Shown: positions 6,986-25,857 of the stretch, piece after piece
Layout: each line of letters opens with the position of its first letter
Numbering within the stretch: the first letter of the stretch is position 1
Assembly: GCA_027049035.1 (NCBI GenBank)
Contig: JALTVI010000107.1
Span: 206,889 to 270,888 of the forward strand
Source of the DNA: Sulfurovum sp.
Lineage (GTDB): Bacteria > Campylobacterota > Campylobacteria > Campylobacterales > Sulfurovaceae
Direction: 5' to 3'
Length of the DNA: 64,000 nt
Program-made: the position numbers and the translations under genes
The notes under the pieces: model-generated
Told to the model about the DNA's origin: nothing
The model's input: only the letters and a program-made list of their open reading frames with translations
The model's database searches: none

Positions 6986-6995
6986 TTTCCTTCTC

Positions 6996-7011
6996 TGCGC
7001 CTTCGGGCGCA
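6996..7011 (+). terminator. Hairpin after rpmA (TGCGCC-TTCG-GGCGCA)
   Basis: A perfect 6-bp stem with a stable UUCG tetraloop lies 11 bases after the rpmA stop. No T run follows (AAACATTC), so it may act with Rho or as a 3'-end stabiliser. Confidence 0.5.
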
Positions 7012-7253
7012 AAACATTCTCCTAAAACACAATATTCTTTAAGTTGAATATTCAACCAATCCCGCATATCGATACAAGCATAATATCATTCAAAACATTT
7101 TCAATTCAATATATATAAATAAAAATTAAATTTATTATTATAGCGTTGAATAAGATTTCATTTAACTATACTAAATAATATTATAAAGAATAAAAAATAA
7201 TTTATCTTATATTAAGTAAATCTAGTGATATACTCATATTTCAAATTTTATAT
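7012..7253 (+). promoter_or_regulatory. AT-rich leader with palindrome and extended -10 promoter
   Basis: This spacer has no gene and is far richer in A and T than the surrounding coding DNA. It holds a perfect 14-base palindrome GTTGAATATTCAAC (7043-7056), a possible operator, and an extended -10 element TGATATACT (7226-7234) whose expected start point is about 7240, just before the riboswitch. Confidence 0.5.
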
Positions 7254-7343
7254 TTGAACTGCCACACCTGCTGCGAAGCAGGGCCGGAAAGCCATGGATC
7301 TCGATGATAATGCGCCCGCATTGGAGAGACTGCCAGGCTGCAA
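7254..7343 (+). ncRNA. c-di-GMP-I (GEMM-I) riboswitch
   Basis: The RNA has the GEMM-I order: TGCCAC before stem CCTGCT/AGCAGG closed by a GCGA (GNRA) tetraloop (7267-7282), then the conserved GGAAAGCCATGG (7284-7296), a second stem ATCTC/GAGAG with an inner hairpin AATGC/GCATT, and a closing GCCAGGCTG (7332-7340). The G three bases before the ACAC of the leader matches the guanine that contacts c-di-GMP, not the A of cGAMP variants, by recalled alignment to known structures. No terminator hairpin follows; control may be on the ribosome site AAGGAG at 7362. It precedes the 677-residue secreted protein. Confidence 0.8.
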
Positions 7344-7377
7344 TCACACACATTAACATTACAAGGAGCATTCTTTT

Positions 7378-9411
7378 ATGAAAAAAGAAGGAATCAAAGG
7401 AAGTGTTGTTGCAGCAGCACTTGTGTTAGGGCTTGTGACTGCACCAACACCAGTGAAAGCGGGTTGGTTGAGTGACACGTGGGACAGTTTTACCGACAGG
7501 GTGGAAAACCTGTTTGATGAGGCACAGGATGCAGTAGAGGATGTCATTGATGATGTCATTTTGCAGCCGGTTGAAGATGGTATTGTGTATTTACTCGAAC
7601 ACGGAGCAGGAAAAGGTGCAGACTATCTTATTGGCCTGATGCTGCAGCTTGATAGTCTTGACGGACATGTCGCTTTTGGGCTTATGGTCGATCTGATGCA
7701 GAATAAAAATATCATTACTGATGATATTTTAATTGCCATGATGAAAAATGAAAATATGGTTTCACTAATTGGCAAACTGATCGCAGAAGAAGATACACAG
7801 GCAAGAGCGGAAGAGTTTTTTACTGTTGCAATGCAAAGAATGCTTCCGATCATGATGGATCCTTCTTTTGATGTAAACATCATTTCGGAAATCCCGACGG
7901 AGGCATTTGTAATGTTTTCAAGTTTGGGAAGTATTGAAGATAATGATGATGCGCTTGAAAAAGCATGGGAAGGTATGTTGAAAAGTGCAATGAGTGATCC
8001 TCAAACTGCAGGAAGGATGTTCGAATTGCTCGGTAAGGTTTCGCCTGCATACAAAAAAGCGATGCTTGATTTTATGTTCCTTGCCATTGACGCAAATGGT
8101 ATTCAGCATATCGCTCAGTCTGTCAACTTCAACCAGGCGATGATAGAAGGTTTCGCTACGATGATGGAAAACGATCCTCAGGCAGCACAACAGCTTCTTC
8201 AGGGACTTATGCCTATGCTGCTTACGTTTGACGATCAGGGTAATATGACAGGTATGACGCCATATGGCGCTAGATTTATGACGGTGCTCGGTACAAAAAT
8301 GATCACTTGTCAAGACCCCGCAGCAACTGCGCTTGGTATGGCTTTTGGTCAAATGATGCCGGGAGTTGTTCCCCCTGCAATCAATGAGGATTACGCCTGC
8401 AACAGAGTTGAAGATGCTGAAAACATTGCACATTTGAACAATGTAGAGATAACATATATTGACTCAGACAATGACGGCGTACCTGACTTTATGGATAGAT
8501 ACCCAGGTATCGACAATAGAGCAGATATTGATAATGATGGTATCCCTAACGATGCGGATGACGATATGGACGGCGACGATATTGCCAACGGTGCAGATGC
8601 AGATGCAAACGGTGATGGTCAGATTGATACGGGAAAAGCTGATACCGATGGTGACGGTATAGACAATGCATCCGACAATGATATAGACGGTGACGGTATA
8701 GACAATGATTCCGACGATGATATAGATGGGGACGGTATTGCAAACGATGCAGATGCTGATGTAAATGGAGATGGTATTGTTGACAATGGGCCTGATAAGG
8801 ATGGTGATGGTATCAATGATGCACATGATAATGACATTGACGGTGATGGTATTGTCAACGATGCAGATGCGGATGCAGACGGTGATGGTCAGACTGATGA
8901 TGGTGTGCAGGATGAAGATGGCGATGGTATCATAGACGGTATCGTTGTCGATAACGGCAAAATAGTAGAGACTATTGTCTACTTCTATGGTACTGATGGC
9001 ATCCTTAGAGACAAAAACAATCAGGAGGTGGTTAACCGAGATTATAGCAATGATGCCAATCATATTACCAATGTTACAGTAATGATGCCGGGTAACAAGA
9101 GTGTCGTAATTCAGGTCGATATGGATGGGATCCATACTGATGATCAGGGCAACAAAATGATTGTCAGTGATATGCTCGATGACAAGGGCAGCCGCTTTAT
9201 CATTTCGATGACAACTGACGGTTTTGGAAAGGTATTCATCGGAAATGCTGATGGTGGTTTCGAGATGACGGGGTATCTTCAGGGAATGAAAGAGAATGAA
9301 GAGCTTGTCTTCTCTGTGAGCAAAACACAGGACGGAAAGCTTGCAGGCAAGACGACAATTATGCCAAAAGACAAAGCGCTTGCCTTTGGCAGCAGTGTAT
9401 TTAAGCAGTAA
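7378..9411 (+). CDS. Secreted Asp-rich protein with thrombospondin-3-like Ca-binding repeats
   Basis: The 677-residue protein has a Sec signal peptide (cleavage expected after A28, TPVKA). Residues 30-350 are mostly helical, with no recognised family. Residues about 361-521 are an uninterrupted run of DxDxDG-type repeats (DSDNDGVPD, DADANGDGQID, DNDIDGDGID and similar), as in thrombospondin type-3 and EF-hand-like calcium-binding linkers. The last 150 residues are beta-rich. No sortase, PEP-CTERM or type IX sorting end is seen. It lies directly under a c-di-GMP-I riboswitch, which suggests a role at the cell surface or in a matrix; that role is inference. Confidence 0.8.
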   Translation: MKKEGIKGSVVAAALVLGLVTAPTPVKAGWLSDTWDSFTDRVENLFDEAQDAVEDVIDDVILQPVEDGIVYLLEHGAGKGADYLIGLMLQLDSLDGHVAFGLMVDLMQNKNIITDDILIAMMKNENMVSLIGKLIAEEDTQARAEEFFTVAMQRMLPIMMDPSFDVNIISEIPTEAFVMFSSLGSIEDNDDALEKAWEGMLKSAMSDPQTAGRMFELLGKVSPAYKKAMLDFMFLAIDANGIQHIAQSVNFNQAMIEGFATMMENDPQAAQQLLQGLMPMLLTFDDQGNMTGMTPYGARFMTVLGTKMITCQDPAATALGMAFGQMMPGVVPPAINEDYACNRVEDAENIAHLNNVEITYIDSDNDGVPDFMDRYPGIDNRADIDNDGIPNDADDDMDGDDIANGADADANGDGQIDTGKADTDGDGIDNASDNDIDGDGIDNDSDDDIDGDGIANDADADVNGDGIVDNGPDKDGDGINDAHDNDIDGDGIVNDADADADGDGQTDDGVQDEDGDGIIDGIVVDNGKIVETIVYFYGTDGILRDKNNQEVVNRDYSNDANHITNVTVMMPGNKSVVIQVDMDGIHTDDQGNKMIVSDMLDDKGSRFIISMTTDGFGKVFIGNADGGFEMTGYLQGMKENEELVFSVSKTQDGKLAGKTTIMPKDKALAFGSSVFKQ

Positions 9412-9427
9412 AAAAAGGAGAATATGT

Positions 9428-9709
9428 ATGAAAAGAGTTTATAGACTACTGAGCATGGTATCTGCCGCAGCACTCATCACAGGATGTGGCGGCGGAGGTG
9501 GTGGTGGCGGTTCTGCCGCTGCCGTACAACAACAGCAGCCAGTTGCAAAAACGATTCCTTTGAATGTCGGAGAGAAGACTTCGGTAAAACCGGGAGATAG
9601 AATCGTCAATGCCAGTGATGATGCAGTGGTGGATATTGTGGTGGTCGGAGAGGAGCGTACCGTAACGCTTAAAACAGGAAGTGCCGCTTTGCAACGACCT
9701 GTAGACTAG
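9428..9709 (+). CDS. Small poly-glycine lipoprotein
   Basis: ATG 9428 is chosen because it follows AAAAAAGGAG and begins a clear lipoprotein signal, with lipobox LITGC (Cys20); a longer open frame upstream has no support. The 93-residue product continues with eight glycines, an Ala/Gln-rich linker, and a compact beta-like domain with IPLNVGEKTSVKPGDRI. It starts 16 bases after the Asp-rich protein gene and probably shares the riboswitch-controlled transcript. The family is not recognised. Confidence 0.7.
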   Translation: MKRVYRLLSMVSAAALITGCGGGGGGGGSAAAVQQQQPVAKTIPLNVGEKTSVKPGDRIVNASDDAVVDIVVVGEERTVTLKTGSAALQRPVD

Positions 9710-9710
9710 A

Positions 9711-10028
9711 TTACTCCTCTTCTATAATCAGCAGGTGCCGGCACCGGTGCCTGCCTGCAAACCATCCCCTATAATAATCATTTTCATTGTTGAAAAGTTT
9801 ATGCGATTTGGTGTAGTAGCCCTTTGCCGTTTCACAGCCGTCTCTAACCCCTCTTTTATAGATTTCGGAGAGGTTTTTACCAAAACTCACACCGCTATAG
9901 GTGTATCCGCCAAGATAGGGCTGTTGAGCCGGACCGGACTGATTGGAGGCGCACCCTGCAAGCAGCAGGGCAAGTATCGCTGCAGTGAAACCTCTTTGAA
10001 TTTTTTTTGTCTCTTTTTTCATCCTCAT
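9711..10028 (-). CDS. Predicted lipoprotein of unknown function
   Basis: The 105-residue product has a basic N-terminus and lipobox LLLAGC (Cys26), then YLGGYTYSGVSFGKNLSEIY and a Cys/His-rich end RGWFAGRHRCRHLLI. It is transcribed toward the preceding lipoprotein gene, the two stop codons almost touching. The 3' end contains a perfect GGCACCGGTGCC palindrome (9740-9751) that might serve as a shared terminator. No family is recognised. A second possible start lies two codons in. Confidence 0.6.
   Translation of the reverse strand: MRMKKETKKIQRGFTAAILALLLAGCASNQSGPAQQPYLGGYTYSGVSFGKNLSEIYKRGVRDGCETAKGYYTKSHKLFNNENDYYRGWFAGRHRCRHLLIIEEE
9731..9754. other. GC-rich palindrome between convergent lipoprotein genes
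   Basis: The bases form a 9-bp stem, GCAGGTGCC with GGTGCCTGC, with two G-T pairs and a GGCACC loop. It overlaps the last codons of the minus-strand lipoprotein gene and could limit read-through from either side. Confidence 0.4.
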
Positions 10029-23902: not shown

Positions 23903-23982
23903 TCTGCACAAAGCCAAACTGTCTGCAAGGACAGGACGGAAAGCCATGGGTCTTCTCTCCGAAGATCGCCAGGCTGCTCAGA
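23903..23982 (+). ncRNA. c-di-GMP-I (GEMM-I) riboswitch
   Basis: The element is closed by TCTG/CAGA (23903-23906 with 23979-23982). It then shows GCCAAAC, a stem CTGTC/GACAG with a GCAA tetraloop, the conserved GGACGGAAAGCCATGGG (23935-23950), a second stem GGTCTTC/GAAGATC, and CGCCAGGCTGC. The base corresponding to the ligand-contacting G20 is G, indicating c-di-GMP rather than cGAMP. It shares GGAAAGCCATGG and GCCAGGCTG word for word with the copy at 7254. A GTG start with AAGGAGGAG follows at 24037. Confidence 0.85.
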
Positions 23983-24036: not shown

Positions 24037-24639
24037 GTGAATAAAACATTGGTCGTATTGGCTTTAGGCCTGTTTGAGGCAGGGTTTGTGTATGCAGGAG
24101 GTGATATTGCACCTGTGGAGACGACACCAATAGTGGCAGAAGAACCGAGTGCGTTTTATGCAGGAATTGGAGCGGGACGCTTGAGTGTCAAAAATGAGTC
24201 GAGCAAAGAGGAGATAGATGCGACAATGGTTGAGCTGTCATTGGGGTATCAGGTCTCTTCATACTTTGCTGTTGAGGGGCGTTACGCTTTTGGTTTCAAT
24301 ACGGAGTATGATCAGGGCAATGTGGTAAATCCGGTACAGGTTTATGACGGCAAGGTATCCCAGTGGGGTATCTATTTCAAACCGCAGTATGCCTTTGGTG
24401 ATTTCGGCATATACGGCCTGTTGGGTTTCGGCCAAGTACGCTTGAACGACCTTCTGGGTGACAATGCCGTTGAAGAGGGGTTTCGATGGGGACTTGGAGG
24501 AAGCTATGCTATGACAGATCACTGGAGTCTGTATGGAGAGTATCTCTGGCTCTATGATGACAAAGGGTTTGACTATGTGGCTAAACAGGCGGATGTAAAA
24601 GTGAATGCCTGGAGTTTTGGTGTTCAGTACAGATTTTAG
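24037..24639 (+). CDS. Outer-membrane beta-barrel protein (OmpA/OMP_b-brl type)
   Basis: The 200-residue protein has a signal peptide (NKTLVVLALGLFEAGFVYAG), then alternating aromatic strands such as YAGIGAGRLSVKNE, FAVEGRYAFGF, and WGIYFKPQYAFGDFGIYGL, ending in SFGVQYRF with the terminal Phe recognised by the BAM complex. An eight-strand barrel is likely. A GTG start follows AAGGAGGAG. It is the first gene after the c-di-GMP-I riboswitch. Ligand or adhesive role is unknown. Confidence 0.85.
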   Translation: MNKTLVVLALGLFEAGFVYAGGDIAPVETTPIVAEEPSAFYAGIGAGRLSVKNESSKEEIDATMVELSLGYQVSSYFAVEGRYAFGFNTEYDQGNVVNPVQVYDGKVSQWGIYFKPQYAFGDFGIYGLLGFGQVRLNDLLGDNAVEEGFRWGLGGSYAMTDHWSLYGEYLWLYDDKGFDYVAKQADVKVNAWSFGVQYRF

Positions 24640-24651
24640 GAGGAGAAAGAT

Positions 24652-25857
24652 ATGAAATTAAAAATAAGTAGAACAGTTTCACTGCTTTGCGCAGGCGCTG
24701 TGTTGATTGGGGTAAACGGATGTAGTGGCTCTTCAGGGACACAGACGGACTATACATTTGCATCAGAAGCATCAGAACCAGCTTCCCAACAGCAAAGTGC
24801 AACGTATCGGGCAGTATTCCCTACAAAACCGGATGCATATGAGGGAGAAACTGGAGATAACAATGCTTCAGTAGCAGGTTCAGTTGAAGTTGGGGCTCCT
24901 CTCCAGGCACGCAGTATCTATCCACGAGGTGATTATGACTGGATGAAAGTTGAACTTGAAGCAGGGAAACGATATGAAATATTTTCCTATAACTTGAACG
25001 AAGTAGGAGATACCTACCTCTATCTGTATGACGATACAGATCAAAGCCCTGGCAGTGAAATTGCAAGCAATGACGATTACATTGATTATGACAGTTTTAT
25101 TGATTTTACTGCGGATCGAAATGGAACCTATTATATTAAAGTGCGTTCTTACAGTGTAGAAGAAGCAACCAGCTATCAGTTTGGAATCCGTGAGTATGTC
25201 GATAATGATGATGACGGCTATACACCTACGTATGACTGCAATGATAACAATGCCTCCATTTATGTTGATGCGGACGAGATACCCGGCAATGGCATTGATG
25301 AAGACTGTGATGGAGTGGATGCACTCGCAAGTGATGTGCCTGACAGGTATGAAGAAGATAACGATATTGCACAGGCCAAACCAGCTCCTGAAACAAGCGG
25401 ATCTTATGAGGAGGTTGAACACCGTTACGATATTTCTTCGCAGATGCGTACATTACATGAGGCAGGCGACAGTGACTATATGGTCTTTTCATTACAGCCT
25501 CAAGAAAAGGCTAGGTACCAAACATGGAGAAATAACATTGGCAGTATGGATTTTGCCCTTTATGATGAAAATGGCACTGACATCTCTGGTACGTTTGATG
25601 GAATGAACCATTCAAATATATCTCAAACCTATTATATCTCAGTGAACAGTACGGGTGATACAGGATGGTATGTATTTTCATTGTACCGATATGGTGTAGA
25701 TATGGATGGAGACGGTTACTTTACCAAGGATTGGGATGGGGACTGCAACGATAACAATGCATCTATTCATCCGTATGCAGATGACAGCGATGATACTGAC
25801 GGCATAGATATGAACTGTGATGGTGTTGATGGCTACAATAGTGATTATTCGAATTAA
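24652..25857 (+). CDS. Lipoprotein with PPC-like and MopE-like metal-binding motifs
   Basis: The 401-residue protein has a lipobox (LIGVNGC, Cys25). Two pre-peptidase-C-terminal-like beta domains (about 84-180 and 235-345, with GDYDWMKVELEAGKRYEIF and GDSDYMVFSL) each precede a DxDxDGY...DCNDNNASI...DxDCDGVD segment (184-223 and 351-394). These segments resemble the putative metal-binding motif of MopE-type surface proteins. It is thus a modular exported protein, probably calcium-binding. It lies 12 bases after the barrel gene under the riboswitch. Confidence 0.8.
   Translation: MKLKISRTVSLLCAGAVLIGVNGCSGSSGTQTDYTFASEASEPASQQQSATYRAVFPTKPDAYEGETGDNNASVAGSVEVGAPLQARSIYPRGDYDWMKVELEAGKRYEIFSYNLNEVGDTYLYLYDDTDQSPGSEIASNDDYIDYDSFIDFTADRNGTYYIKVRSYSVEEATSYQFGIREYVDNDDDGYTPTYDCNDNNASIYVDADEIPGNGIDEDCDGVDALASDVPDRYEEDNDIAQAKPAPETSGSYEEVEHRYDISSQMRTLHEAGDSDYMVFSLQPQEKARYQTWRNNIGSMDFALYDENGTDISGTFDGMNHSNISQTYYISVNSTGDTGWYVFSLYRYGVDMDGDGYFTKDWDGDCNDNNASIHPYADDSDDTDGIDMNCDGVDGYNSDYSN

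Follow-up and report, generated by a model that had tools for sequence, protein, structure and literature searches.

Sulfurovum are vent and symbiont bacteria and important chemosynthetic colonizers. To our knowledge, control by cyclic di-GMP (c-di-GMP) is little described in their phylum, Campylobacterota. The window analyzed here, a stretch of 64,000 nucleotides from a Sulfurovum genome, contains an operon for an Asp-rich protein that appears to stand under a riboswitch. This locus raises three questions: does its leader sense c-di-GMP, how would it control the operon, and is it an isolated case? The analysis points to a class I c-di-GMP (GEMM-I) riboswitch in front of an exported Asp-rich protein operon, with control of translation. 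We consider this explanation as a whole to be probable.

Identification of the aptamer

A cmscan search of the whole window against Rfam revealed a full-length match to RF01051 (model positions 1-87) at 7251-7345 on the forward strand. The score is 46.1 bits, compared to a gathering cut-off of 35, with an E-value of 7.6e-6. The element is a class I c-di-GMP (GEMM-I) riboswitch aptamer, a known riboswitch class. The original prediction had placed it at 7254-7343, off by merely 2-3 bases, and had proposed as a check that the RF01051 score should exceed the gathering cut-off, which it does. The GEMM-I order described there is entirely present. P2 (7262-7287, +) is capped by a GCGA tetraloop of the GNRA type and is followed by GGAAAGCCATGG, P3 (7290-7339, +) and GCCAGGCTG. 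The P2 and P3 helices covary. The ligand-contacting residues G20, A47 and C92 correspond to 7261, 7288 and 7341, respectively, and the columns of the C44-G83 tertiary pair are kept in the alignment. P3 has an extended tip. In three homologous loci the sequences of the tip differ and its complementarity is kept.

Additional elements are found on either side of the aptamer. A probable extended -10 promoter element, TGATATACT, is located at 7226-7234 (+) according to its match to the consensus, and the two homologous loci (G343 and G347) have a TATACT box with comparable spacing. An AT-rich perfect hairpin (TTCAAAT...ATTTGAA) occupies 7241-7260, directly before the aptamer, where the transcript probably begins. 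G347 has a similar hairpin at the same place, and G343 has a shorter one. Downstream, the Shine-Dalgarno sequence AAGGAG is at 7363-7368 (+), and AGGAG.ATTCTTTTATG is conserved in the three loci.

Prediction of the ligand

In 68 aligned elements, standard pairs make up 97.6% of the GEMM-I structure cells, compared to 86.9% after shuffling. Both sides have changed in 14 of the 19 pairs. The covariation score is higher than that of all 500 shuffles and of every slid version; the shuffling keeps relatedness in, and the result is to be read as support and not as a probability.

Ligand contacts were assessed in 150 elements, these 68 and 82 further sequences. A47 is kept in all of them. G20 is kept in 149, the lone exception being a misaligned row, and C92 in 144. 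Position 20 is the main position for selectivity between c-di-GMP and cGAMP (PMC9262584; PMC6274999), and cGAMP-type elements have an A there (PMC6274999). The A20 of GEMM-Ib (cGAMP) elements was not found in the 7251-7345 aptamer or in the 149 correctly aligned elements, all of which have G. Because G20 is kept and position 20 governs selectivity, the predicted ligand is c-di-GMP rather than cGAMP, and for the 7251-7345 aptamer we hold this to be very likely.

In 6 of the 150 elements (L062, L095, L101 and three more), C92 is replaced by U and G20 is retained; at least one of these six rows may be misaligned. Decay or an altered ligand preference is possible in these elements.

The target operon

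The ORF at 7378-9411 (+) encodes a protein of 677 residues with a signal-peptide-like start. It contains 14 overlapping DxDxDG motifs between residues 362 and 526, approximately, in agreement with the original description of a secreted Asp-rich protein with about 160 residues of such repeats. Judged from its sequence, the product looks exported and may be located at the cell surface. It is predicted to bind calcium, a function that we favor with some reservation. No Pfam or NCBIfam match to the ORF was found. No curated profile of thrombospondin type 3-like calcium-binding repeats matches the protein, and the PDB yields a weak match (5wtl, E 0.0055). A low-confidence structure model has a helical N-terminal part and a β C-terminal part. 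The mean pLDDT is 51 (three sequences), and the Foldseek matches, with TM-scores below 0.3, were set aside. The second gene of the operon (9428-9709, +) encodes a small lipoprotein.

Among the 78 Sulfurovum genomes, clear homologs of the ORF are found only in G343 and G347. They are 62% and 55% identical to it in the alignment and contain 31 and 18 DxDxDG motifs, respectively. Both are directly preceded by a GEMM-I aptamer of the A24C/A43Y type and followed by a small lipoprotein gene, whose product is 47% (G343) and 42% (G347) identical to the one encoded here. The link between riboswitch and gene is thus independently supported by an aptamer at the same place before both homologs.

The promoter, the riboswitch and the two-gene operon together form an inserted unit (6989-9719, +) between rpmA and another small lipoprotein gene (9711-10028, -). 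Alignment with L106, the closest relative, shows 91% identity that breaks off at 6988 and resumes at 9720, and the operon is absent from L106-L108. The break in identity and this absence point to a 2.7-kb unit that this genome gained or its relatives lost. At the G343 and G347 loci, the upstream neighbor is another gene and not rpmA. Since the unit is present at two locations, the comparison favors a transfer in which promoter, switch and operon would have moved as one unit. No direct repeats of 7 bases or longer were found at the cassette borders.

GEMM-I elements in the genome, genus and phylum

The ObgE encoded in the window is 97-99% identical to that of Sulfurovum sp. MAGs. The host genome (2.49 Mb) contains eight GEMM-I elements above the cut-off, two of them in the window, together with 19 GGDEF and 10 EAL domains. 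Recurrence of the structure in this genome and its covariation speak against a chance match at 7251-7345. Six of the eight are located on a single 278-kb contig (C85) of the assembly. The second element of the window, at 23904-23982 (+), is absent from the original prediction and scores higher than the first (57.9 bits with RF01051). The operon behind it (24037-25857, +) encodes an outer-membrane barrel and a lipoprotein with PPC and MopE motifs, according to domain and motif matches. Clan competition in Rfam assigns this element to c-di-GMP-I-GGC (RF03167; 63.5 bits, gathering cut-off 59). We rejected this membership. The score passes, yet the model has G at the equivalent of A47 and the element has A, which makes the variant label look spurious.

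GEMM-I elements are present in 72 of the 78 Sulfurovum genomes, with up to 21 in one genome (G319) and 13 in another (G219). By hand addition, the matches in the genus sum to about 531. Among 298 genomes from across the phylum, 25 have matches, all within a single order, where they fall into four families, that of the window among them. The element at 7251-7345 is not a lone oddity; there are hundreds of such switches in the genus, mostly before surface proteins. Their number in one genus and this placement would tie c-di-GMP to attachment in chemosynthetic colonizers. A search for c-di-GMP-II riboswitches in the genus gave no match, but the control genomes gave none either.

We applied a crude export rule of our own to the first genes after the aptamers. 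By this rule 49 of 60 look exported, compared to 252 of 848 background ORFs taken from this genome and its relatives. The domains recognized in the targets are, among others, Ig-like, cadherin-like and SdrD-like domains, CshA adhesin repeats, Laminin-G, P-proprotein, ShlB/TPS two-partner secretion, OEP, OMP barrels, LysM with NlpC/P60, PilJ, PAS, MCP and histidine kinases. Genus-wide, the targets are mostly adhesins, outer-membrane proteins, lipoproteins and chemosensory genes. In this genome, minor-pilin-like genes were recognized by eye behind one giant surface protein.

Closely spaced pairs of aptamers occur in more than one genome of the genus. In G225, two near-identical GEMM-I aptamers (L078:1001-1099 and L078:1112-1209) are arranged in tandem, 12 bases apart, ahead of a Laminin-G protein. 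The 3' end of the second is complementary to early codons over about 13 bases.

The proposed expression platform

Terminator-like sites are present in 4 of 61 leaders, compared to 2 of 61 after shuffling, and intrinsic terminators were rejected as the general platform. Pairing of the aptamer 3' strand was likewise rejected as a platform common to every leader, since dinucleotide shuffles of 60 elements yielded a mean z of -0.19 (t -1.2). The sole class with a 3'-strand pairing signal is that of leaders shorter than 60 nt, counted from the aptamer end to the start codon.

This signal was obtained in a swap test, in which each aptamer 3' strand was compared with the initiation region of every gene after double centring, with start codons assigned by a heuristic. 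In the exploratory set, from which the ORF homologs were left out, 19 short-leader elements gave a residual of -1.95 kcal/mol (p=0.0002), and no own-gene pairing was found for longer leaders (p=0.85). Because the split between short and long leaders had been chosen post hoc, the hypothesis was pre-specified and then tried on a second set of 80 new elements, 65 of which were assigned a start codon. Consistent with the pre-specified prediction, the 22 short leaders gave a residual of -1.33 (p=0.0008, or p=0.0015 with similar genes removed), and the 43 long leaders gave no signal (p=0.72). Two other aptamer segments showed no pairing signal. In the second set, the signal is located at -25 to +3 (p=0.00005); the coding part alone was not significant (p=0.11). 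These tests show that the pairing potential is non-random in the short-leader class, where the 3' strand pairs more strongly with the initiation region of its own gene than with those of other genes.

No other single element pairs as strongly as the one at 7251-7345. Its aptamer 3' strand (7337-7349, +) can form 12 base pairs with early codons of the ORF (7403-7415, +), a duplex of -18.9 kcal/mol whose partner strand is coding. By inspection, the equivalent helix in the two homologs starts near +25 and +27, and the G at position 91 that pairs with C is replaced by an A that pairs with U. Only 2.3 kcal/mol separate the aptamer fold from the alternative one.

We propose that, without ligand, the aptamer 3' strand would leave P3 and pair with the early codons. 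The resulting helix would close the initiation region in a loop. With c-di-GMP bound, the 3' strand would be held in the aptamer and the initiation region freed. High c-di-GMP would then lead to more production of the Asp-rich protein operon, as expected of an ON switch. In the folding model, the unpaired probability of the Shine-Dalgarno sequence is 0.75 and 0.74 in the two states. No change is predicted there, and a lowering of translation by the alternative helix is inferred. Control is probably exerted at the level of translation; for its direction, we lean slightly toward switching on by c-di-GMP.

Alternative explanations

An OFF switch acting on translation, in which c-di-GMP stabilizes the aptamer and another strand masks the ribosome-binding site, would reverse the proposed direction. 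Vc2 is described as such a switch, dependent on P1 (PMC9262584), and in our element folding of the aptamer is compatible with a hairpin at the start codon, ATTCTTTT pairing with AAAAGAAGGAAT. However, P1 looks weak here, with about two pairs adjoining the core, judged by inspection of the sequence. In addition, the 3' strand pairs with initiation regions, mainly at -25 to +3 in the second set, and such pairing would keep translation blocked as long as no ligand is bound. An OFF switch is therefore considered unlikely. Alternatively, c-di-GMP might control transcription, through an intrinsic terminator or Rho. The Cd1 and pilM GEMM switches act on transcription (PMC9262584), and Rho is outside the reach of the methods applied. 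Here, however, the 32-nt linker behind the aptamer contains no hairpin with a U-run, and terminators are unenriched in the phylum set. We give this explanation somewhat less credence than the OFF switch.

Other alternatives concern the aptamer itself. The internal loop of P2 carries A24C and A43C changes near the pocket, and it may be asked whether another cyclic dinucleotide is sensed. A24C occurs together with A43C or A43T in 10 of 10 elements, the one at 7251-7345 and nine others, and never in the other 140; the Fisher value for this pattern is inflated by relatedness. The co-change occurs in several genomes, ahead of different genes. Against a different ligand, G20, A47 and C92 are all kept, and an A at position 20 is characteristic of cGAMP-type elements (PMC6274999), making this explanation improbable. 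Decay of the aptamer with loss of switching would agree with the weak P1, with one A-C mismatch in P3 and with a score that ranks among the lower of the eight in the genome. But the contacts of the core are unimpaired, the three homologous loci preserve the complementarity of the P3 tip although its sequence has changed, and two genomic locations retain the switch. We regard decay as very improbable. A c-di-GMP-responsive switch that acts on translation is the reading we prefer.

Implications and comparison with known systems

A broader picture can be drawn tentatively, at somewhat less than even confidence. Sulfurovum and some related Campylobacterota may have a large network of c-di-GMP riboswitches, in which a genome of about 2 Mb can hold as many as 21 elements. 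Its short-leader class would be mainly translational, with the 3' strand folding back onto the ribosome-binding site, the start or the first codons, and the switch and a surface-protein operon could move as a cassette. The short-leader pairing rule offers a direct, testable mechanism.

The original prediction knew of no characterized GEMM riboswitch in Campylobacterota, and the literature searched yielded no paper that describes a c-di-GMP riboswitch from this phylum. Because most subscription journals were outside this search, the lack of such a paper argues only weakly for novelty. Automatic RF01051 annotation in such genomes is likely. Compared with the literature searched, what is new is the host group, the number of elements in single genomes, the occurrence of switch and operon as one unit at two sites, and the pairing rule.

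The elements share with RF01051 c-di-GMP-I riboswitches the fold, the conserved core, the G20, A47 and C92 contacts and the leader position before surface or motility genes. They differ in that the G21-C46 pair is swapped to C-G in nearly all of the set, and the 7251-7345 element differs further in A24C, A43C and its weak P1. The Geobacter GEMM-Ib cGAMP riboswitches have the same aptamer fold and are also numerous, with 17 GEMM-I elements in G. sulfurreducens (PMC8835794), but they have A at position 20 where the elements here have G. Vc1 and Vc2 of Vibrio cholerae are GEMM-I switches of a Gram-negative bacterium as well. Vc1 acts positively on the attachment protein gene gbpA (PMC4744006). 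Vc2 acts on translation (PMC9262584) as an OFF switch that needs a stable P1, whereas the platform proposed here would use the aptamer 3' strand itself. Cdi-1-2 of Clostridioides difficile is a class I switch before the calcium-binding putative adhesin CD630_27970 (PMC6200980). The arrangement resembles ours in that a c-di-GMP class I switch directly precedes a putative calcium-binding surface protein, a likeness that goes by their descriptions. Unlike in our proposal, the target of Cdi-1-2 is negatively regulated by c-di-GMP (PMC6200980).
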